Source: Sphingomonas astaxanthinifaciens DSM 22298 (lineage in GTDB: Bacteria; Pseudomonadota; Alphaproteobacteria; Sphingomonadales; Sphingomonadaceae). Taken from it: a DNA stretch of 64,000 nucleotides. Shown one piece after another: positions 23,739 through 64,000 of the stretch. Where the stretch lies: the NCBI RefSeq assembly GCF_000711715.1, contig NZ_JONN01000001.1, positions 1,240,001 through 1,304,000 on the forward strand. The letters are read 5' to 3'. Position 1 is the first letter of the stretch, and every line of letters begins with the position of its first letter. The notes under the pieces were generated by a model. That model made no database searches and was not told the DNA's origin. It was given only the letters and a program-made list of their open reading frames with translations. The position numbers were made by a program, and so were the translations under genes.

Positions 23739-24122
23739 CCGCCGACCATAGCGGGTGCCGCCCAAGACTTCCCAGCCTTGCAATGTAGGAGATTTTGCCT
23801 TTCTATGAACCGATATCTTTCAGACGGCACACTCCCGCCATTCCCGTTGCCCTATCTCGCCGGAAATCGCGGCAGCCCGGGCGCATCTGACCCGAACGCG
23901 ACTCGCGCACCCTGTGACCTTCGTGACCTTCGGGCTCGTTGCGACTCGCGCACCCCGTGACCTTTGTGACCTTTGCCACCTCTTCCCTCTCGCTCCGGCC
24001 TCTGCTAGGGGCGGCGCCTTCCAGCATCACTGGATTCGCCGCGGGAGGGTGTCCTCGGGCGCCCGCTTGTACCGCTAAACTTCGTGCCCTCCGCGTGCGG
24101 CGGGCCTTTAACGAGAGTGATC
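23739..24122. other. Gene-free spacer upstream of rplK
   Basis: About 380 bp without a gene I can support. It holds the start region of the minus-strand membrane gene, two direct repeat copies (listed separately) and the leader of rplK. A 51-codon plus-strand frame from 23804 exists but has no Shine-Dalgarno and runs through the repeats. The rplK promoter must lie here, but I could not single it out with confidence. Confidence 0.6.
23898..23973. repeat. Direct repeat, two 33-bp copies with 43-bp period
   Basis: Copies at 23898-23930 and 23941-23973 are identical at 31 of 33 positions and separated by 10 bp. Each ends in two direct copies of GTGACCTT spaced by one base. They lie 150-225 bp upstream of rplK. 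Confidence 0.8.
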
Positions 24123-24554
24123 ATGGCCAAGAAGATTACCGGCTATATCAAGCTGCAGGTGCCCGCAGGCGCCGCCAACCCGTCCCCGCCGATCGGCCCT
24201 GCGCTGGGTCAGCGCGGCGTCAACATCATGGAATTCTGCAAGGCGTTCAACGCCGCCACGCAGGAGCTCGAGAAGGGCATGCCGATCCCGACGGTGATCA
24301 CCGTCTATGCGGATCGCAGCTTCTCCTTCGCCACCAAGACCCCGCCTGCCTCGTTCCTGATCAAGAAGGCCGCTGGCCTCAAGTCGGGTTCGAAGGAGCC
24401 GGGCAAGGTCAGCGCGGGCAAGATCAAGCGCTCGCAGCTCGCCGAGATCGCCGAGACCAAGATGAAGGATCTCAACGCCAACGACATCGAGGCCGCGACC
24501 AAGATCATCGAAGGCAGCGCCCGCGCGATGGGCCTCGAAGTGGTGGAGGGTTAA
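24123..24554 (+). CDS. rplK: 50S ribosomal protein L11
   Basis: L11 forms part of the GTPase-associated centre of the large subunit together with L10-L12. The 143-aa protein begins [20 protein letters not shown] and contains [22 protein letters not shown] (in two adjoining motifs), [13 protein letters not shown] and the C-terminal RNA-binding domain with [22 protein letters not shown] in parts. Start ATG 24123 follows GAGAG. rplA begins 4 bp after the stop. secE-nusG, usually just upstream, is 9 kb away. Confidence 0.98.
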
Positions 24555-24558
24555 GACC

Positions 24559-25254
24559 ATGGCCAAGCTGACCAAGAAGCAGAAGAGCCAGGCCGACCAG
24601 GTCGACCGCGAGAAGCTGTACAACGTCGACGAGGCGATCGCGCTGGCCAAGAGCCTCGCCACCGCCAAGTTCGACGAGTCGATCGAGGTTGCGCTCAACC
24701 TCGGCGTCGATCCGCGCCACGCCGACCAGATGGTCCGCGGCGTCGTCAACCTGCCCAAGGGCACCGGCAAGACCGTCCGCGTCGCCGTCTTCGCCAAGGG
24801 CGCCAAGGCTGACGAAGCCACCGCTGCTGGCGCCGACCGCGTCGGTGCTGAGGACCTGATGGAAGAGATGCAGGCCGGCAAGCTCGACTATGACCGCGTC
24901 ATCGCGACCCCGGACATGATGGGTGTCGTCGGCCGTCTCGGTAAGGTGCTGGGTCCCAAGGGCCTGATGCCGAACCCGAAGCTCGGCACCGTCACCATGG
25001 ACGTCACCAAGGCCGTCACCGACGCCAAGGCCGGCCAGATCGAGTTCCGCGTCGAGAAGGCTGGCATCATCCACGCCGGCATCGGCAAGGCGAGCTTCGC
25101 CGCCGAGGACCTGCGCGCCAATTATGACGCGTTCGTCGACGCCATCACCAAGGCGAAGCCCGCCGGCGCCAAGGGCAAGTATCTCCGCAAGGCGGCGATC
25201 AGCTCGTCGATGGGCCCGGGCATCAAGGTCCAGCTCGAAGAGACTGCGGCCTGA
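24559..25254 (+). CDS. rplA: 50S ribosomal protein L1
   Basis: L1 forms the mobile stalk at the E site and represses translation of its own operon by binding the mRNA. The 231-aa protein has the expected [55 protein letters not shown] and the C-terminal [14 protein letters not shown]. It is 4 bp downstream of rplK and is followed by a terminator, so rplK-rplA is a closed two-gene operon here, separate from rplJ-rplL. Confidence 0.98.
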
Positions 25255-25279
25255 GGCCGTCGACCTTTGAGGGAAATGA

Positions 25280-25309
25280 GGGGCCGCGGCGGAAACGTCG
25301 CGGCCCTTC
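25280..25309 (+). terminator. Intrinsic terminator of rplK-rplA
   Basis: The stem GGGCCGCG-GCG pairs with CG-CGCGGCCC around a GAAA-containing loop and is followed by TTCTC. It closes the rplK-rplA operon. Confidence 0.7.
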
Positions 25310-25340
25310 TCACGTTGGGAGGGCAAGAGGAGACATGATC

Positions 25341-25565
25341 ATGACCGACCGCCCCCGCGACGAAGACCGCCTGCTCGACGCCGAGGAAGAGCATTTCAGC
25401 AACGACCACCCCCTCGCCTCGCCCAACGAGCTCGCCGGTGACGCGCAGAGCGGGGTCGAGATGGAATTCCTTGCCCGCGACATCGCCGACGCCGAAGGCG
25501 CGGCCAGCGGCGCCGCGCTCGAGGATGGCGAGGAAGTCGACACCTTGCCGCTCGAAGGCGAGTAG
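25341..25565 (+). CDS. Small acidic hypothetical protein
   Basis: I do not recognise this protein of about 74 residues. It is strongly acidic (many Asp/Glu), starts MTDRPRDEDRLLDAEEEH and has NDHPLASPNELAGD in the middle and DTLPLEGE at the end. There is no signal peptide or membrane helix. The ATG at 25341 is better spaced from GAGGAGA (25327-25333) than the ATG two codons earlier. The stop TAG is followed after one codon, in the same frame, by the FAD enzyme at 25569. A similar small acidic protein starting MTDQNRDTP follows that enzyme. Confidence 0.7.
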   Translation: MTDRPRDEDRLLDAEEEHFSNDHPLASPNELAGDAQSGVEMEFLARDIADAEGAASGAALEDGEEVDTLPLEGE

Positions 25566-25568
25566 TCG

Positions 25569-26753
25569 CTGACCCGGGGGGCCCGCCAGTTTGACGCGAT
25601 CATCCTCGGCGCCGGTGGCGCCGGGCTGATGTGCGCCGCCATCGCCGGCCAGCGCGGCCGGCGGGTGCTGGTCCTCGACCATGCGCCCGAGCCGGGCCGC
25701 AAGATCCTGATCTCGGGCGGCGGCCGGTGCAACTTCACCAACCTCCAGGCGGTCCCCGACCGCTATCTGTCGGCCAATCCGCATTTCGCCCGCTCGGCCA
25801 TCGCCCGCTACACCCCGCGCGACTTCCTCGGCCTTGTCGAGAAGCACCGCATCGCCTGGCACGAGAAGACCCTCGGCCAGCTCTTCTGTGACGGCTCGGC
25901 CCGGCAGATCGTCGCCATGCTCCTGGAAGAATGCCGCGCCGGCGGGGTGACCCTGGGCCTCGACGCGCCGATCCGGTCGGTCGACCATGCCGACGGCCGC
26001 TTCCGGGTCGAAGCGGGAAGCTGGAGCGCCGAGGCCCCGGCCCTCGTCATCGCCACCGGCGGCCCTTCGATCCCCAAGCTCGGCGCGACCGGCTTCGCCT
26101 ACGACCTCGCCCGCCAGTTCGGCCTCAAGGTGGTCGAGCCCCGCCCCGCCTTGGTGCCGCTGACGCTCGGCGGCGAGGAAGCGCTGTTCCGCGAGCTGTC
26201 GGGCGTCGCCGCCCCGGTCGAGGCGCGCTGCGGCAAGGCCGCGTTCCGCGAGGCCGCGCTCTTCACCCACAAGGGCATGAGCGGCCCGGCGATCCTCCAG
26301 GTCTCGAGCTACTGGCGCCACGGCCAGGCGATCGCGATCGACTTCCTTCCGACGGCCGGCACCGACTGGCTTCGCGAGGCCAAGCGCCAGCGCCCCCGGG
26401 CAAAGCTCGCGACCGTGCTCGGCGAGCATCTGCCGGCGCGGCTCGCCGACACGCTGGCCGAACGGCTCGGCGTCGCTGGCGAGCTCGGCAATGCCTCCGA
26501 CAAGCTGCTGGCAGCGGCCGAGCAGCGGCTCGCGGGCTGGCCCTTCCAGCCGAGCGGGACCGAAGGCTTCGCCAAGGCCGAGGTGACGGTCGGCGGGATC
26601 AGCACCGCCGAATTGTCCTCGCAGACCATGGCCGCCCGCAAGCTTCCCGGCCTTTACGCCATCGGCGAGGCGGTCGACGTCACCGGCTGGCTCGGCGGCT
26701 ACAATTTCCAGTGGGCCTGGGCGAGCGGCTGGGCGGCGGCACAGGCCTTGTGA
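25569..26753 (+). CDS. NAD(P)/FAD-dependent oxidoreductase, HI0933/YhiN family
   Basis: This flavoprotein of about 394 residues has the N-terminal dinucleotide motif FDAIILGAGGAGLMCA, then RKILISGGGRCNFTN, the ATGGPSIPKLGATGFAYDLA segment and the C-terminal GEAVDVTGWLGGYNFQWAWASG. These are the landmarks of the HI0933-like family, whose reaction is not well defined. The first ATG in frame (25629) falls inside the FAD-binding loop and would destroy it. The only plausible initiator upstream is a CTG at 25569, preceded by AAGGCGAG. The start is therefore non-canonical or the sequence has an error; the coding body is sound. Confidence 0.88.
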   Translation: MTRGARQFDAIILGAGGAGLMCAAIAGQRGRRVLVLDHAPEPGRKILISGGGRCNFTNLQAVPDRYLSANPHFARSAIARYTPRDFLGLVEKHRIAWHEKTLGQLFCDGSARQIVAMLLEECRAGGVTLGLDAPIRSVDHADGRFRVEAGSWSAEAPALVIATGGPSIPKLGATGFAYDLARQFGLKVVEPRPALVPLTLGGEEALFRELSGVAAPVEARCGKAAFREAALFTHKGMSGPAILQVSSYWRHGQAIAIDFLPTAGTDWLREAKRQRPRAKLATVLGEHLPARLADTLAERLGVAGELGNASDKLLAAAEQRLAGWPFQPSGTEGFAKAEVTVGGISTAELSSQTMAARKLPGLYAIGEAVDVTGWLGGYNFQWAWASGWAAAQAL

Positions 26754-26807
26754 GGTAGCGCGCATCCCGACGCCGCGCGGTTCGTTGGGGGCGGGAAGGA
26801 GACCAGC

Positions 26808-27002
26808 ATGACCGACCAGAACCGCGATACCCCCGTCATCCCCGAGCCGACCGATTTCGCCACCGCCCGCGAGGACGGCGTCGCCGACCGCATCGCCAGC
26901 GCCGACACCGAGGGCGGGACCGACCAGTTCACCCCGTCCGACGAAGCGCATTCCTCGACCGACGAACGTCGCACCAGCGACGGCAAGGTCAGCAGCCTCT
27001 AA
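26808..27002 (+). CDS. Small acidic hypothetical protein
   Basis: I do not recognise this 64-aa protein. It begins MTDQNRDTPVIPEPTDFATA and is rich in Asp, Glu, Thr and Ser, with no membrane helix. A strong Shine-Dalgarno (GGGAAGGAG) precedes the ATG. It follows the FAD oxidoreductase by 54 bp. Its N-terminus resembles that of the small acidic protein at 25341, so the two may be distant relatives flanking the enzyme. Confidence 0.7.
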   Translation: MTDQNRDTPVIPEPTDFATAREDGVADRIASADTEGGTDQFTPSDEAHSSTDERRTSDGKVSSL

Positions 27003-27206
27003 ACTAAGCAGAAAATCGAATGGCGGGAGCGGTTCCACGGGCCGTTTTCCGCCGTTCGCCGACAGGTCGAGTCCCATCGGTCGTCTGCCCGGGGGTCGAC
27101 CGGCGGCGGCGGCAAGTCGAACCTCGCGCGCATCGCGCCGCCCCCATGCCTATGCCCCAATCAGCCCGGTGGGATCGTCCCGCCGGCCTGACCAGGGGTT
27201 TTGACC

Positions 27207-27632
27207 ATGACCAAACAGATCAAGAGTACGGGCCTTGCCGCCCTTGCGTTTTCGGTATCGCTCGGGCTCGTCGGCCTGACCGTCGCCCAGCCGGCCTCGG
27301 CCGCCAATGGCCCGAACGAATATCGCGTGATCGCGCCGAGCGAGGATACGGTGCTGACCAAGACCGTCCGCGTCAGCGACCTCGACCTTGCCAATCCGGC
27401 CGACTTCCGCCGCCTCGAGTTCCGCATCAGCGCAGCCAGCCGCTTCGTCTGCGCGCCGCTCAGCAACGGCCAGGTCACGCCGGCCGAAGCCAAGTGCCGC
27501 GCTTACGCCAAGGGTTCGGCCAATCGCCAGGTCGCTTCGCTCCTCGAGCGCGCCGACAAGCTGGCCGCCGCCGGTCTCCCCAGCCGCTTCGACGCCGTGC
27601 TGACGGTGGTCGCGCCCGACAGCGGCGAGTGA
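27207..27632 (+). CDS. UrcA family protein
   Basis: The 141-aa exported protein has a signal peptide to about residue 33 (ALAFSVSLGLVGLTVAQPASAA). It then has the UrcA signature VRVSDLDLANPADFRRLEFRI, followed by AASRFVCAPL and a second Cys at AKCRAYA, probably a disulfide. UrcA proteins occur in sphingomonads and Caulobacter and have no known biochemical role. The ATG at 27207 is preferred to an in-frame TTG two codons upstream. A long inverted repeat follows the stop. Confidence 0.87.
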   Translation: MTKQIKSTGLAALAFSVSLGLVGLTVAQPASAANGPNEYRVIAPSEDTVLTKTVRVSDLDLANPADFRRLEFRISAASRFVCAPLSNGQVTPAEAKCRAYAKGSANRQVASLLERADKLAAAGLPSRFDAVLTVVAPDSGE

Positions 27633-27649
27633 TCCTTGCGGCTCGGCAC

Positions 27650-27688
27650 AAGGCCATGCGCGTCGCCCCCGGGCCCGCGCATGGCCTT
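27650..27688 (+). terminator. 13-bp inverted repeat after the UrcA gene
   Basis: AAGGCCATGCGCG (27650-27662) and CGCGCATGGCCTT (27676-27688) are perfect 13-bp arms with a 13-nt loop. There is no good U-run, so it may be a weak terminator or an mRNA-stabilising hairpin. It separates urcA from the trp leader. Confidence 0.6.
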
Positions 27689-27743
27689 CCTGCCGTCGTC
27701 AAGGGGCTTGACCTCTTGGAAAGTTTCCGGTTTTCCTGAGGCC

Positions 27744-27821
27744 ATGGTTCGCAGCCTCCTCACGTCAAACCTACGCCATTGGTGGCGCTGGCAGACCCTT
27801 GAGCGGCGTGCCGGCCACTAG
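27744..27821 (+). CDS. trpL: Tryptophan leader peptide
   Basis: A 25-codon frame, ATG to TAG, encodes MVRSLLTSNLRHWWRWQTLE and five further residues. Three of four consecutive codons (27780-27791) are Trp, a rare amino acid, in a peptide of only 25 residues. It lies 30 nt upstream of a strong terminator and 110 nt upstream of the DAHP synthase gene that opens aroF-trpE-trpG. A short GAGG lies just before the ATG. This is the classical arrangement for ribosome-mediated attenuation: stalling at Trp codons when Trp-tRNA is scarce would favour the antiterminator. Confidence 0.85.
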   Translation: MVRSLLTSNLRHWWRWQTLERRAGH

Positions 27822-27850
27822 CGCGATCTTTTTCCAGCGCTGACTGCCCG

Positions 27851-27877
27851 ACCCGCCGTGCCCCGGCGGGTTTTTTG
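27851..27877 (+). promoter_or_regulatory. Trp attenuator terminator
   Basis: The stem CCCGCC(G)/(C)GGCGGG is followed by six T residues, 54 bp before aroF. Upstream, CGGCG near 27802-27806 can pair with CGCCG of the terminator's 5' arm to form a competing antiterminator. GCGCT after the Trp codons can pair with AGCGC just after the leader stop, giving the alternative 1:2 pairing. Pairings were judged by eye. Confidence 0.8.
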
Positions 27878-27930
27878 TGGTCGCGAAATGTCCTGCCGGC
27901 TCCCCGATCCCCGACCGACAGGATTTGAAG

Positions 27931-28944
27931 ATGATCATCGTTTTAAAGCCCGAAGCGCCCGCCGACAGTGCCGAGCGGCTGATCGCCAAGATTGCCGACG
28001 CCGGCCTCAAGCCGCTTCACATGCCCGGTGCCGAGCGAGTCGTCCTCGGCGCGCTGGGCGACGAGCGCGTGCTTGCCGAGCTGGCGCTCGACAGCGACCC
28101 CGCGGTCGAGAGCGTCAAGCCGATCCTCGCGCCCTACAAGCTCGTCAGCCGCGAGCTTCAGGCGCACGATACGGTGGTCGAGGTCGGCGGGGTCGCCATT
28201 GGCGGCGACCGGCTGGCGGTGATCGCCGGCCCCTGTGCGGTCGAGAGCCCCGAGCAACTTCACGAGACCGCCAGCGCGGTGAAGAAGGCCGGCGCGACGC
28301 TGCTGCGCGCCGGGGCGTACAAGCCGCGCACCTCGCCTTATGGTTTCTCGGGCCACGGGCTCGAGGGCCTGAGGATCCTGCGCGAGGTCGGCGACGATCT
28401 CGGCCTTCCCGTCGTTACCGAAGTGATGGACACGGCCGATGTCGCCGCGGTCGCCGACGCCGCCGACTGCCTCCAGATCGGTGCGCGCAACATGCAGAAT
28501 TTCGCGCTGCTGCGCGCGGTCGGCGCGGCCGGGCGACCGGTGCTGCTGAAGCGCGGCCTGTCGGCGACGATCCAGGAATGGCTGCTGGCGGCCGAATATC
28601 TGATGGCCGCGGGCAATGCCCAGGTGATCCTGTGCGAGCGCGGCATCCGGACCTTCGAGCCGGCGACCCGCAACACGCTCGACCTCAATGCCGTGCCCTA
28701 CGTCAAGAACAAGACCCACCTGCCGATCATCGTCGATCCCAGCCACGGGACGGGCGCCCGCGACCTCGTCCCGCCGATGAGCCTCGCAGCGACCGCGGCG
28801 GGGGCGGACGGCCTGATGATCGAGGTCCACCGCGATCCCGCAGTTGCCATGTCCGACGGCGCACAGTCGCTCTATCCGCACCAGTTCGAGGCGCTGATGG
28901 CGGCGCTGGCCCCCGTCGCGGCGGCGATCGGCCGCCAGCTGTGA
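27931..28944 (+). CDS. aroF: 3-deoxy-7-phosphoheptulonate (DAHP) synthase, type I-beta
   Basis: DAHP synthase joins phosphoenolpyruvate and erythrose 4-phosphate, the first step of the shikimate pathway. The 337-aa protein has an N-terminal ferredoxin-like regulatory domain (about residues 1-75, as in Thermotoga-type enzymes). It is followed by the barrel with [51 protein letters not shown] and [12 protein letters not shown]. The ATG has AGGA 8 nt upstream. The stop overlaps the trpE GTG. Placement behind a Trp leader implies control by tryptophan supply. Confidence 0.96.
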
Positions 28945-30434
28945 AGGTCGAGGCACGGGTGCTCGCCCGGCGCCTGCCCGCCGGGCTCGATCCTTTGGGC
29001 GCCTATCGCGCGCTGACCGGCGGGGGGAGCGCGACCGGGCTGTTCGAAGCGCCCGACGGGCAGGTCCTGGTCATGGGCCGCGCCTGCGTCAGGGCCGAGG
29101 CCCGCGAGGGCATGGTGGTGGTCGAGGCGCTGAACGCCAATGGCGAGGCGCTGCTGGCCGCCTTCGATTCGCCCGCGATCGTCGAGCGGCGGATCGACCG
29201 GCTGCTCCTCGCCTACAGCCAGCCCGAGAGCGAGGATGCGACCGAACGCCTGCTCGGAGCGCAGCCGCTCCACGCGCTGCGCGGCCTGCTCGACGCCGCC
29301 GCGGCGCCGCGCGGCGAGCCGTTCGGCGCGGTGCTGCTCGGGGTCGCGGGGTTCGACCTCGCGGGTTGGGGCGAGGAAATGCCGGCCGCAGCGGCGGCCG
29401 ACTTCCCCGACTTCCTGTTCTACGTCCCCGACACGTTGCTCACCATCGCGCCGGGCGGCGCGGCGCGGCTGCTGTGCAGCGCCTTCGGGCCGGACGAGCG
29501 CCACGCCCATGACGCGGCGCGGCGGCTGGAAGAGGGGCTGGCCGCCCTCGCCGCGCCCCGCGAGGTCGCGCAGGACCGGCCGGCCGCGCCGTCGACGGGG
29601 CCGAAGGCCTTCACTCCCGATCTCGACGATGCCGCCTTTGCCGCGCTGGTCGTTCGGCTGAAGGAAGAGATTGCGGCGGGCGAAGTCTATCAGATCGTGC
29701 CCAGCCGCACCTTCCGCGGCCCCTGCCCCGATCCGCTCGGCGCTTACGCCCGGCTGCGGCTGGCCGAGCCCGCCAGCTATCGCTTCTTCCTCGCGGGCGA
29801 GCGCTGGACCCTGCTCGGCGCCAGCCCCGAAACCAGTGTGCGGCTGTCCTCGGGCGGCCCCGGCGGGCGGACGGTCGAGGTCAAGCCGATCGCCGGCACG
29901 CGGCCCCGCGGGACCACCGCCGACGCCGACGACCGGCTCGAGGCCGAGATGCGGCTGGATGGCAAGGAGCTGGCCGAGCACATGATGCTGGTCGACCTTG
30001 CCCGCAACGACGTGGCGCGGGTGTCGCTGCCGGGGACGCGACGGGTGGCGAAGCTGCTGACGGTCGAGCGCTTCGCCCGGGTCATGCACCTCGTCTCCTC
30101 GGTCACGGGGACGCTCCGCCCCGGCCTCGACGCCTTCGACGCGCTCGCGGCCTGCCTCAACGTCGGGACCTTGGTTGGCGCGCCCAAGATCCGCGCGATG
30201 CAATTGCTTCGCGCCGCCGAGGCGACCCGCCGCGGGCCCTATGGCGGCGCCATCGGCTGGGTCGCGGGCGATGGCCGGATGGATACCGCAGTGGTGATCC
30301 GCTCGGCCCTCGTCGAGGACGGGATCGCCGCCGTGCGCTCCGGCGCGGGCGTGGTCCATGACAGCATCCCCGAGGCCGAGGCGGCGGAGACGCGTGCCAA
30401 GGCCTCGGCCCTTCTCGGAGTCCTCGGCGCATGA
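28941..30434 (+). CDS. trpE: Anthranilate synthase component I
   Basis: TrpE converts chorismate to anthranilate, using ammonia supplied by TrpG. The 497-aa protein has the chorismate-binding signatures [70 protein letters not shown] and [14 protein letters not shown]. The GTG start overlaps the aroF stop by 4 bp. The N-terminal feedback-binding motif, usually LLES, reads LFEA here, so tryptophan inhibition may be altered. PabB is the alternative, but the Trp leader and the trpG neighbour favour TrpE. Confidence 0.93.
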
Positions 30435-31003
30435 GGCCGGTCCTGCTCATCGACAATCTCGACAGTTTCACCTTCAACCTGGTGGAAAGCCTCGAGCGAC
30501 TGGGCGCGCGGGTCACGGTTCGTCGCAACCGGGTCGTCGCCGCCGAGGCGCTGGCCGAAGCCCAAGCAATGGGCGCGGTCCTGATGATCTCGCCGGGGCC
30601 GGGCTCGCCAGCGCAGGCCGGCTGCATCCTCGAGCTGATCGCGATCGCGAAAGGCCGGGTCCCGCTGATCGGCATCTGCCTTGGGCACCAGGCGATCGTC
30701 GAGGAAGCGGGCGGCACCGTCACCCGCGCCGACCTCCCCGTCCACGGCAAGTCGATGCTGCTCGAGCATGACGGCGCCGGTCCGTTTGCGGGGATCGAAA
30801 GCCCGGCTCGGGTCGGGCGTTACCATTCGCTTTGCACCCGCGACCTGCCCGCTCGTTTCACCGTCCACGCCGAGGTCGACGGCATGGCCATGGCCTACAG
30901 CGATCGGGTGGCGCTTCAGGCCGGGCTGCAATTCCATCCCGAAAGCATCCTCACCACCCACGGCGACGCGATGCTGGCGAACCTGCTCGCGATATTCGAT
31001 TAG
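30431..31003 (+). CDS. trpG: Anthranilate synthase component II (glutamine amidotransferase)
   Basis: TrpG hydrolyses glutamine and passes ammonia to TrpE. The 190-aa class I amidotransferase begins VLLIDNLDSFTFNLVE, has the oxyanion segment MISPGPGSP, the nucleophile Cys in GICLGHQAI, RYHSL, and the catalytic His-x-Glu in LQFHPESILT. The ATG overlaps the trpE stop as ATGA, so aroF-trpE-trpG is one coupled operon. trpD and trpC, which often follow, are absent; the next gene is a GNAT acetyltransferase. Confidence 0.95.
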   Translation: MRPVLLIDNLDSFTFNLVESLERLGARVTVRRNRVVAAEALAEAQAMGAVLMISPGPGSPAQAGCILELIAIAKGRVPLIGICLGHQAIVEEAGGTVTRADLPVHGKSMLLEHDGAGPFAGIESPARVGRYHSLCTRDLPARFTVHAEVDGMAMAYSDRVALQAGLQFHPESILTTHGDAMLANLLAIFD

Positions 31004-31059
31004 GGCGGCGGCGAGCACTTCACCTTGGCAGGGCGCGCGGCGGCGGCCATGCCACGCGC

Positions 31060-31578
31060 GTGCAACCCGTCATCCGCCCTTACCGGCCAGGCGACGCCAC
31101 CGCGCTTGCCGCCATCTATGCGCATCACGTCGCCCACGGCACCGCCTCCTACGAGACCGAGCCGCCCGGCGAGGCGGAGATGGCGCGGCGGCTGGCGACG
31201 GTGGTCGAGGCGGGCTGGCCGGCGCTGATCGCCGAAATTGGCGGCCGGGTCGCGGGCTATGCCTATGCGACCCAGTATCGCCCGCGCCCGGCCTATGCCT
31301 ACGCCTGCGAGGACAGCATCTATGTCGACCAGGCGCTGGTCGGCCGGGGGGTTGGCAAGGCGCTGCTGGCCGCGCTGATCGAGGCGTGCGCGGCCTTGGG
31401 CTTCCGGCAGATGGTGGCGGTGGTGGGCGGGGCCGAGCCGGCCTCGATCGCCCTTCACGAAGCGCTCGGCTTCCGCGAGGTCGGGCGCCTGCCCGGCCTT
31501 GGCTGGAAGCATGGCCGCTGGCTCGACAGCGTCTATCTCCAGCGTCCGCTCGGGGTCGGCACCGGCTCCCCGCCTTGA
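31060..31578 (+). CDS. GNAT family N-acetyltransferase
   Basis: This 172-aa protein has the GNAT fold in order: N-terminal [17 protein letters not shown], the acceptor-site segment [32 protein letters not shown] in parts, the acetyl-CoA loop [17 protein letters not shown] and the final [27 protein letters not shown] segment. The pattern is that of phosphinothricin/methionine sulfoximine acetyltransferase-like proteins, which acetylate small amino-acid analogues. The GTG start at 31060 is the only suitable initiator near the first strand. It lies 56 bp after trpG. Confidence 0.88.
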
Positions 31579-31846
31579 TCTCCCGGCACTTTCTGCTATT
31601 GGCCCGCCCGTGCCGGGTTCGCCCGGCCGCCGTCCGAGACAGCTGGTGGGGCCTCGCCCCTTAATTTCCGGCCTAGACGGGGAAGAGAGTTTCAGGCGGG
31701 TCCACCCGCCCCTGTCGTGCGTGGGCTTACCCTCGTACGCCGCCTCCCAACCCCACGGACATGAGCTCCCGCCCGGCCCCGGCCGAGCGGGTCATGAAGC
31801 CGGTCGTTCGTCCCTCGGGACAGACGGCCATTTGTTTGGAGTTGGC
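31579..31846 (+). promoter_or_regulatory. Leader region of rplJ-rplL
   Basis: This 268-bp gene-free stretch precedes rplJ. It contains a possible promoter (TTGATC at 31575, TATTGG at 31597) and several hairpins, including GGCGGGT/ACCCGCC near 31695-31711. Bacterial rplJ leaders usually bind the L10-L12 complex for autoregulation; I infer that here from position, not from a matched consensus. Confidence 0.5.
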
Positions 31847-32359
31847 ATGGATCGCAACGAAAAGGCGGATCTGGTTGCCGAACTGAAGCAGGTCTTTTCC
31901 GAGACCAGCGTGGTGGTTGTCACCCGCAATCTCGGTCTGACGGTGGCCCAGTCCACCGATCTCCGCCTGCGGATGCGCGACGCCGGAGCCCAGTTCAAGG
32001 TTGCGAAGAACCGTCTCGCCCTCATCGCGCTCGATGGCACCCGCTATCAGCCGATCGGCGAGCTGCTCAAGGGCCCGACGGCCCTCGCCACGTCCATCGA
32101 TCCCGTCGCGGCCGCCAAGGTCGCGGTGGACTTCGCCAAGACCACCGACAAGTTCGAGGTTCTTGGTGGCGCGATGGGCGATACCGTTCTTGACCTCGCT
32201 GGGGTCAAGGCGCTGGCCGAGCTGCCCAGCCTCGATGAACTCCGCGGCACCCTCATCGGCCTCATCCAGGCGCCGGCGAGCAAGATTGCCCGGACCATCA
32301 ACGAGCCGGGCGCCATGCTCGCGCGCGTGTTCGGCGCTTACGCGGCCGAAGCGGCTTAA
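31847..32359 (+). CDS. rplJ: 50S ribosomal protein L10
   Basis: L10 anchors the L12 dimers of the ribosomal stalk. The 170-aa protein begins [17 protein letters not shown], shows the RNA-binding N-domain with [16 protein letters not shown] and [22 protein letters not shown], and the C-terminal helix that binds L12 ([11 protein letters not shown]). The ATG at 31847 has TTGGAG upstream. rplL follows after 63 bp with its own AAAGGAG Shine-Dalgarno. Confidence 0.97.
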
Positions 32360-32422
32360 GGTTCTTCGTTTCAATACCCGCACGACAATCTGGGGCCGAC
32401 GAGCCCCGCAAAGGAGTATCAA

Positions 32423-32797
32423 ATGGCTGACATCACCAAGCTCGTCGACGACCTGTCGGCGCTGACCGTCCTCGAGGCCGCCGAGCTGGCCAAGGCCCTC
32501 GAAGAGAAGTGGGGCGTTTCGGCCGCCGCTGCCGTCGCCGTCGCCGGCCCGGCCGCTGGCGCTGCCGCTCCGGCCGCCGAAGAGAAGACCGAGTTCGACG
32601 TGATCCTCACCGGCGACGGTGGCAAGAAGATCAACGTCATCAAGGAAGTCCGCGCCATCACCGGCCTGGGCCTCGGCGAAGCCAAGGCGCTGGTCGAGGG
32701 CGCTCCGAAGGCGCTCAAGGAAGGCGTCAACAAGGACGAGGCCGAGAAGATCAAGAAGCAGATCGAGGAAGCCGGCGGCACCGTCGAGCTCAAGTAA
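32423..32797 (+). CDS. rplL: 50S ribosomal protein L7/L12
   Basis: L7/L12 forms the flexible stalk that recruits translation GTPases. The 124-aa protein has the N-terminal dimer domain ([21 protein letters not shown]), an Ala/Pro hinge and the C-terminal domain with [31 protein letters not shown] and [14 protein letters not shown] strong terminator follows, so rpoB is not simply co-transcribed; a convergent 1.5-kb gene lies between. Confidence 0.98.
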
Positions 32798-63135: not shown

Positions 63136-64000
63136 TCACGCAGGGAAATTCATTCGCGCCACCAGCGCGGCGAAGCGGGCACTTCCGCGAAGGGGATCGA
63201 GGAACGGGTCGACCTTGAGCGCCAGGAGATCGGAATCGCGCACCTCGAAGGCGCGTTCGAGCGACTCCATCGCGCCGTCGACCTCGCCCAATTGGGCCTC
63301 GATCCGCGCTCTGACGGAATGAAGATTGGTACTCGCCGCGCTGAAGAAGCCGCGGACCTTCCCGGCACTGCGCTCCAGCTGCGCGAGACGCGCGAGGGCA
63401 TCGTCGCGCCGACCGGCCCGCGCCGCGATCAATGCCTGCCCCTCGACATTGTCGCCATAGGCCGCCGCCGCCTCTTCGGTCCTGCCGAGCATCAGCAGCG
63501 AGCGCCCGACAACTTCCGGAAAGCGGAACAGTTCGGGCGACCGGGCCTGCAGGCGCCGCGAATAGCTCACCGCCTCGGCGAACCGCCGGGCATTGGCCAG
63601 CGCCACCACATGCGCATAGTGCGACGCCCAGTTGAGCGGATCGAGAGCCTTGGCCTCGTCGACATAGCGCAACGCCTCGGCATGATTGGCATTGGCGGTC
63701 AGGGCGAAGCCGAAGTTGCGGATGACGTCGGGATCGCCGCTCGCCAGCGACACCGCGATGCGATGCTCGCGCAGGCTTTCCGCGACCTGGAGGGTGAGCG
63801 AATAAGCGAAGGCCAGCGCCGAGCGGGCGATCGGCAGCTTCGGCGCCAGCGCGAGCGCTTTCCGGGCATGGCCCTCCGCTTCCGCCCGTCCCTGCATCAG
63901 CGCCGCGGGCGACGGCGCGGACTGGCTGGCGAGGTTGTTGGCGACGAACGACTTGATCGCATAGGCCCGCGCATAATCGGGATCGAGCGCGATCGCCTGG
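63136..64000 (-). CDS. TPR-repeat protein (5' end beyond window)
   Basis: The coding frame is open through the right edge of the window, so the N-terminus is missing; an internal ATG at 63897 is not the start. The visible 287 residues are tetratricopeptide-type helix pairs, for example AIALDPDYARAYAIKSFVA, HARKALALAPKLPIARSALAF and RYVDEAKALDPLNWASHYAHVV. The C-terminal part ends DPFLDPLRGSARFAALVARM, as in TPR tails of adenylate-cyclase-like or winged-helix regulators in sphingomonads. The function depends on the missing N-terminal domain. Confidence 0.85.
   Translation of the reverse strand, partial: QAIALDPDYARAYAIKSFVANNLASQSAPSPAALMQGRAEAEGHARKALALAPKLPIARSALAFAYSLTLQVAESLREHRIAVSLASGDPDVIRNFGFALTANANHAEALRYVDEAKALDPLNWASHYAHVVALANARRFAEAVSYSRRLQARSPELFRFPEVVGRSLLMLGRTEEAAAAYGDNVEGQALIAARAGRRDDALARLAQLERSAGKVRGFFSAASTNLHSVRARIEAQLGEVDGAMESLERAFEVRDSDLLALKVDPFLDPLRGSARFAALVARMNFPA

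Follow-up and report, generated by a model that had tools for sequence, protein, structure and literature searches.

A probable leaderless tryptophan attenuator upstream of aroF-trpE-trpG in Sphingomonas astaxanthinifaciens

Described tryptophan leaders and the aroF locus

Tryptophan (Trp) attenuation is a textbook mechanism, which normally covers the Trp branch of aromatic biosynthesis. In a 64,000-nt stretch of the Sphingomonas astaxanthinifaciens DSM 22298 genome (contig NZ_JONN01000001.1, positions 1,240,001 to 1,304,000; hereinafter, the window), a short open reading frame (ORF) with a run of Trp codons and a subsequent intrinsic terminator precede the genes aroF, trpE, and trpG. The first of them encodes 3-deoxy-D-arabino-heptulosonate-7-phosphate (DAHP) synthase, the entry enzyme of the aromatic pathway. 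Judging by the sequence and by modelled folding, it is highly probable that this locus is a classical, ribosome-mediated Trp attenuator with a probably leaderless transcript. The type of the switch is classical, and its target is unusual.

The closest described systems are compared with the locus below within the limits of the available excerpts of the cited papers. In Sinorhizobium meliloti, the trpL RNA begins at the leader ATG, upstream of anthranilate synthase, and the rnTrpL RNA acts in trans on the trpDC mRNA (PMC7298713). The S. meliloti trpL/rnTrpL/peTrpL system is likewise an alphaproteobacterial Trp leader upstream of anthranilate synthase; however, just trpE(G) is attenuated there, whereas in S. 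astaxanthinifaciens the operon starts with aroF, and a separate leader precedes trpD. In Streptomyces lividans, the leaderless Trp leader trpL1, with a WWW motif and a terminator, precedes trpE (PMC8079986), and Streptomyces trpL1 was also predicted in another work (PMC1262725); unlike the locus under study, it serves a monocistronic trpE, without DAHP synthase. An attenuator leader peptide before a DAHP synthase gene is known from C. glutamicum (aroR-aroF; PMC11802643), but it carries Phe-Tyr-Phe residues and is separate from trpL of the trp operon.

In addition, the uORFC-13-1 upstream of Acholeplasma aroF was proposed as an attenuator (PMC8632094), possible termination or attenuation was indicated for the Trp-sensitive aroH and Tyr-sensitive aroF of Shewanella (PMC2659441), and putative attenuators were noted before operons with aroA I-beta, for example, in Bacteroides and Enterococcus (PMC1173090). 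In the available excerpts, none of these proposals joins a Trp leader to aroF-trpE-trpG. Marine metagenome contigs with a DAHP synthase gene adjoining trpA (PMC2395257) are similar in that DAHP synthase belongs to a trp operon, but differ in gene order, and the excerpt mentions no leader. The open-licence literature searched, which lacks most subscription papers, contained no report of a Trp leader before aroF-trpE-trpG. Nor did it contain a report of a single pathway divided between paired Trp attenuators in the way described below; the case to be compared is C. diphtheriae, with candidate Trp attenuators before two trp operons (PMC1262725).

The locus shares with the Escherichia coli-type Trp leader (Rfam family RF00513) a peptide with a Trp run and predicted mutually exclusive antiterminator and terminator structures. 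It differs in that the first structural gene encodes DAHP synthase, the leader ORF ends after element 2 (the 5' strand of the predicted antiterminator), and the transcript is probably leaderless.

The leader, its conservation, and the modelled switch

The leader ORF is located on the forward strand at positions 27744..27821 of the window, as are the other parts of the switch, and consists of 25 codons and a stop codon (ATG at 27744, TAG at 27819-27821). The encoded peptide, MVRSLLTSNLRHWWRWQTLERRAGH, contains Trp at codons 13, 14, and 16, and the control codons TGG TGG CGC TGG (27780..27791) form element 1, the proposed site of ribosome stalling. The intrinsic terminator (27850..27876) has a 9-bp stem with arms at 27850-27858 and 27864-27872, followed by a T-run, and begins 28 nt after the leader stop codon. 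Downstream, on the same strand, are aroF (27931..28944), encoding DAHP synthase of type I-beta with an N-terminal ferredoxin-like domain, trpE (28941..30434, GTG start) for anthranilate synthase component I, and trpG (30431..31003) for component II. Both junctions are 4-nt overlaps, and the three genes are presumably co-transcribed. A preliminary description of this DNA had listed a 25-codon frame with three Trp codons in four positions, a terminator after its stop, and aroF with overlapping trpE and trpG, and all these parts were recovered.

AroF was found in 36 of the 71 genomes of the genus, and strong matches were obtained in four of 119 genomes drawn from the family; two of the latter (G053 and G044) lie outside the genus. 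The assumption that all 36 family-level matches represent AroF was dropped, since beyond these four genomes none was better than E 1.7e-28. The resulting set comprised 38 aroF loci including that of S. astaxanthinifaciens; two of them (G181 and G183) are cut by contig ends, leaving 36 with enough upstream sequence. The preliminary description had named a lack of conservation in close relatives as the finding that would speak against attenuation; at 36 of 36 loci, a leader with two or more Trp codons side by side was present, and so was a terminator. In G181, a different contig has a Trp run with a terminator at its end, and its sequence continues into the beginning of the aroF contig. Inspection by eye showed that the leader peptides vary widely between clades except for the Trp run and the residues beside it, and no likeness between clades was seen in the aroF upstream regions 5' of the -35 box. 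A strict Trp-run-plus-terminator pattern was also run on the 71 genomes of the genus, with the reversed pattern as a control. It matched 43 of them (the reversed pattern, 0) and occurred in the S. astaxanthinifaciens genome at two places, the aroF leader and a second leader located before trpD.

As for the start of the leader, a -35-like sequence TTGACC (27708..27713) lies 36 nt 5' of the ATG, a spacing characteristic of leaderless transcripts. A frame-blind search for a start codon 34-39 nt after TTGA detected such a pair in 34 of the 36 aroF leaders and did not find it in two. In all 34 cases, the start shares an open frame with the Trp run, the distance taking ten different values, which means that the reading frame of the leader is conserved wherever a start was found. 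The trpD leaders contained the pair in 38 of 38 cases, in frame and at nine distances. The spacing between TTGA and the start codon makes a leaderless transcript probable, with transcription beginning on the leader ATG or no more than a few bases away from it.

In the proposed mechanism, the signal would be charged tRNA-Trp. When Trp is short, the ribosome would wait at the TGG codons, covering element 1 only. The free GCGGCGTGCCGG stretch (element 2, 27803..27815, within the leader ORF) would then pair with the 3' strand of the antiterminator (27846..27859), which overlaps the terminator 5' arm, and a small hairpin would form at the tip (27819..27842, pairing 27819-27824 with 27837-27842). 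The terminator 5' arm would be taken up by this structure, and RNA polymerase would proceed into aroF-trpE-trpG. With Trp in ample supply, the ribosome would reach the TAG codon, located just past element 2 in the clade of S. astaxanthinifaciens, and mask element 2, allowing the terminator to form. The second leader, built in the same way, stands before trpD and the genes downstream of it, including a class II DAHP synthase gene. Trp supply thus probably decides whether the aromatic entry enzyme is made.

The switch was modelled for the transcript at the moment when the terminator 5' arm and loop have been made, and the bases covered by the ribosome were kept unpaired (assumed footprint, extending 12 nt beyond the A-site codon's first base). 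In the 36 aroF leaders, upstream pairing of the terminator 5' arm averaged 0.775 with the ribosome stalled at the first Trp codon and 0.399 with the ribosome at the stop codon. The stall value exceeded the stop value in 35 of 36 leaders, by at least 0.3 in 18 of them, and the mean difference of 0.376 decreased to 0.102 once the region from the Trp run to the terminator was shuffled. The values were 0.75 and 0.30 for the window locus and 0.748 and 0.245 for the trpD leaders, where stall exceeded stop in 38 of 38 cases. According to this model, the terminator and antiterminator are mutually exclusive and are switched by the position of the ribosome.

For the window locus, the fold predicted with the ribosome placed at the first Trp codon contains the antiterminator as a single long, imperfectly paired hairpin (27803-27815 with 27846-27859 and the tip hairpin) of -24.4 kcal/mol, and bases 27850-27858 are common to it and the terminator. 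The pairing of CGGCG with the terminator 5' arm suggested in the preliminary description is a part of this predicted structure, and the suggested GCGCT/AGCGC pairing corresponds to its tip hairpin. Among close relatives, the arms of the tip hairpin change on both sides with pairing kept (AGCGC/GCGCT, GAACGC/GCGTTC, ACTCGT/ACGAGT). Compared with shuffles, the tip hairpin gave a combined P of 2.4e-4 over the 36 aroF leaders, a value not corrected for relatedness; individually, P < 0.05 was reached in just five of these 36 and in two of the 38 trpD leaders. The leader stop lies 3' of element 2 in the clade of S. astaxanthinifaciens and 5' of it in G119. When element 2 was swapped between species against each leader's own terminator arm (2000 permutations), the native duplexes of the aroF leaders were superior, with only 39 of 2000 permutations as good (z -2.18). 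The region 27744-27885 as a whole folds mildly better than shuffles (z -1.86).

Several observations weigh against this interpretation. The -10 box is weak, with at least four of six matches in two of 35 aroF leaders. In the absence of any ribosome, the terminator 5' arm of the aroF leaders is mostly paired too (mean 0.681), and read-through is therefore what the model predicts for an untranslated leader. The trpD leaders fail the swap test (795 of 2000 as good, z -0.28), which does not separate own from foreign partners there; element 2 and the terminators of trpD leaders hardly vary. Analysis in the RNAalifold program on MAFFT alignments gave no antiterminator: it recovered the terminator alone from the 36 aroF leaders, and a small hairpin with part of the terminator from the 38 trpD leaders. 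Since MAFFT fails to align the variable middle, per-sequence folds were used. Finally, a search against Rfam at gathering scores detected no leader in the window, where the match with RF00513 (Trp_leader) reached 19.3 bits (E 0.11) and remained below the gathering score of 41. In a permissive search of 13 other loci, seven matched RF00513 at E <= 1, with only L053 above gathering (41.8 bits; L074, 40.0; L056, 36.0), and six, including the S. astaxanthinifaciens trpD leader, gave no match. The conservation of the leader and of its frame and the modelled alternative structures support the Trp attenuator proposed in the preliminary description.

Among other explanations, the one that survives best, though quite unlikely, is that the terminated leader RNA and the peptide act mainly in trans, like rnTrpL and peTrpL of S. 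meliloti, and that attenuation in cis merely makes them. The likely leaderless start is indeed shared with S. meliloti trpL (PMC7298713), but trpD has its own leader and terminator here, which makes trans control of trpD unneeded, and beyond the Trp run and the neighbouring residues, the peptides seen by eye differ widely between clades.

It is even less probable that Trp attenuation works but another layer, for example, a hairpin over the aroF ribosome-binding site, is the main determinant of aroF expression. In the clade of S. astaxanthinifaciens, CCTGCCGG (27892-27899) can pair with CCGACAGG (27915-27922), covering the aroF Shine-Dalgarno sequence AGGA, and a similar pairing is seen across the close clade; a Shine-Dalgarno sequence was detected in 19 aroF loci, with pairing of at least 0.6 in 18 of them. 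However, none was found in 17 of the 36 loci, and in the window, the folding of the stretch with this hairpin does not surpass that of shuffles (z -0.2).

A constitutive or upstream-gene terminator with incidental Trp codons is very improbable as well: although terminator-like sites are expected by chance (one real site at 26500-31500 versus a mean of 2.5 in shuffles, so that the terminator by itself is no evidence) and a UrcA-family gene (27201-27632) ends ~110 nt before the leader, the leader and terminator recur at every aroF locus with enough upstream sequence and again before trpD in 38 of 41 genomes, and the region from the Trp run to the terminator matters in the modelled switch.

To estimate the probability of a chance Trp cluster, the upstream 300 nt were dinucleotide-shuffled 5000 times. 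A short ORF of 8-50 codons with at least three Trp in four codons appeared in two of 5000 shuffles with ATG and in five of 5000 with any start. The real 64-kb window contains one further independent short frame of this kind (63567-63692, minus strand, WWRW), which is probably due to chance.

Protein searches support the assignment of the three genes. AroF passed the cut-offs of PF00793 (283.2 bits vs. 25.5), PF18152 (59.9 bits vs. 27), and PRK08673 (480.8 bits vs. 335). Its nearest solved relative is 1rzm, an enzyme of Thermotoga maritima in which the domain serves as a sensor of Tyr and Phe. TrpE exceeded the PF00425 cut-off with 259.7 bits and was below the cut-off in all 25 NCBIfam models listed, the top one being PRK13564 (464.5 bits vs. 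471); its nearest solved relative is 1i7q. TrpG passed both PF00117 (144.9 bits) and TIGR00566 (162.7 bits vs. 121.05).

In the vicinity, a perfect 11-bp inverted repeat (GGCCATGCGCG...CGCGCATGGCC) without a T-run is located at 27652-27686, 3' of the UrcA-family gene. By eye, within 24084-32797, aroF-trpE-trpG stands between rplK-rplA and rplJ-rplL, the ribosomal names being given by look only. The same interval also holds genes for an HI0933-like flavoprotein and the UrcA-family protein and a frame that looks acetyltransferase-like by eye.

The second leader and the DAHP synthase genes

The second Trp leader of S. astaxanthinifaciens (contig C1, 2010715-2010777) encodes VSKQWHQWWGPKAAARWRWR, has a GTG start and its own terminator, and precedes trpD. 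Behind it, the genes trpD, trpC/F (one frame holding both domains), trpB, trpA, a short-chain dehydrogenase/reductase gene, a class II DAHP synthase gene, aroA, and aroC follow in the same direction. At six of the seven junctions, neighbouring genes overlap or are at most five bases apart, the start of aroA being ambiguous. No terminator-like site was detected on the + strand between trpC and aroC, where internal promoters may occur. Judging by this arrangement, the genes from trpD to aroC form an apparent operon behind the second Trp leader.

The trpD leaders were searched for in 41 of the 65 genomes (out of 71) with a TrpD match. A leader with a terminator was found in 38 of the 41: in 20 of 21 genomes with aroF elsewhere and in 18 of 20 genomes without aroF, which still keep it; it was not found in G142, G155, and G147. 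The peptides end with AARWR in 34 of 38 cases. As this motif is encoded by the near-invariant element 2, the trpD leaders have further Trp codons inside element 2. In 13 of the remaining 24 genomes, the trpD match stands only 613-674 nt after the trpE match. Eight of these 13 were checked: trpG fills the gap, lying 54-118 nt before the trpD match, and no adjacent Trp codons occur between trpG and the trpD match, so only the aroF leader can serve there. In L232 (G162) and L249 (G175), trpG is located directly 5' of the trpD leader, with no adjoining trpE match in the fetched stretch.

One class I DAHP synthase (aroF) and one class II DAHP synthase were found in the S. astaxanthinifaciens genome; the class II gene rules out aroF as the sole DAHP synthase gene. 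Both detected genes stand behind Trp leaders. The class II protein (L065:4117-5202) is short (362 aa, 334.5 bits vs. the cut-off of 614.7), and its PF01474 matches omit profile positions 167-225; it may have degenerated or represent a small variant, and it is uncertain whether it is active. The chorismate synthase frame of this genome (L065:6485-7393) is also short (303 aa, PF01264 346 bits). According to the preliminary description, Trp attenuation of aroF would also affect phenylalanine and tyrosine synthesis. This point calls for caution in view of the second DAHP synthase gene, but that gene too lies in an apparent operon behind a Trp leader, so the point is shifted rather than removed.

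Class II DAHP synthase was detected in 37 of the 71 genomes of the genus and in 26 of the 36 having aroF. Among the ten aroF genomes without it, three have an AroG-type candidate, confirmed by TIGR00034 in G169 and G170 and indicated by score alone in G178. The other seven are G135, G164, G166, G174, G181, G183, and G184, of which three are nearly whole: G135 (100% complete, one contig), G164 (97%), and G181 (96%). The additional, weakly matching PF00793 proteins of G135 and G181 are 3-deoxy-D-manno-octulosonate-8-phosphate (KDO8P) synthases. In G135, G164, and G181, the Trp-attenuated aroF is the only DAHP synthase detected by these searches, which begin with a loose first look and could miss a gene.

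Origin, loss, and significance of the cassette

A search in 385 genomes sampled from the class gave ten AroF matches at E <= 1e-60, namely, that of S. astaxanthinifaciens and nine at 43-51% identity; apart from the former, no relative with an identity above 51% was found among these genomes. The fetched flanks of the nine (up to 1.5 kb) contained neither a trp-gene match nor a Trp leader. The named aroF loci considered here are the best 80 of 593 matches, from which records of or very near the S. astaxanthinifaciens genome may be left out. Among these 80, trpE and trpG matches stand just downstream of aroF in four loci and upstream in one (L114). The closest outside relatives among them by AroF identity are six loci at 58-64%: four gammaproteobacterial (58-62%), a deltaproteobacterial metagenome-assembled genome (MAG) L077, the closest of all at 64%, and a Methylomirabilota MAG L078 (61%).

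The arrangement of Trp leader, aroF, trpE, and trpG was found in three Gammaproteobacteria: Enterovibrio L074, Ferrimonas L076, and the Kangiellaceae MAG L079. In the fourth gammaproteobacterial locus, MAG L075, the contig starts just before the terminator; in L077 and L078, aroF is not preceded by a leader, and trpE gave no match. L074 and L076 have the same GTGA and ATGA junctions as the window. A midpoint-rooted phylogenetic tree of AroF was constructed for 33 of the 80 named loci and for all family loci but the incomplete G130 and G183 (36 of 38). The 36 family members formed one group (100/95) beside the six outside loci (99/92), and the support of the union was 100/99. This distribution suggests that a regulated cassette was acquired, its source and direction being putative.

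In the 35 genomes of the genus without aroF, TrpE was not detected either; they have one PF00425 gene (13 genomes) or none (22) in a first look that could miss genes, and their matches to the window TrpE are weak (E 1e-39 or worse). In S. astaxanthinifaciens, the second PF00425 gene is identified as PabB by TIGR00553. A TrpD match is present in 30 of the 35, and these genomes lacking aroF and TrpE may belong to Trp auxotrophs. In L260, L277, and L286 (genomes G120, G151, and G165, without TrpE), a third Trp leader with a terminator precedes a permease-like gene. It was assigned to TauE/SafE (PF01925, cut-off 32.6 bits) in L260 (36.7 bits) and L277 (40.9 bits) and by likeness only in L286. The product of this gene is a candidate Trp-controlled importer.

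A broader interpretation, which is tentative and on balance rather doubtful as a whole, is that charged tRNA-Trp may serve in this lineage as the transcriptional gate for the aromatic trunk. Paired attenuators would stand before the Trp branch as well as both detected DAHP synthases, 5-enolpyruvylshikimate-3-phosphate synthase, and chorismate synthase, and some relatives would have no DAHP synthase other than the attenuated aroF. The sensing of Phe and Tyr would take place at the enzyme level alone, by the regulatory domain of AroF, so that the three end products would be split over two levels of control, and the leader-aroF-trpE-trpG cassette would have been acquired whole from outside Alphaproteobacteria.

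At this locus, Trp attenuation would cover the enzyme that starts the synthesis of Phe, Tyr, and folate and quinone precursors too. If this is true, a Trp surplus would throttle all aromatics, unless another synthase, a promoter, or control at the enzyme level compensates. The locus would therefore offer a clean test case of how a branched pathway survives control by a single product, and relatives that differ in the number of attenuators (one or two) or of DAHP synthases (one or two), or that have lost the cassette and kept the trpD leader, would constitute a natural experiment.

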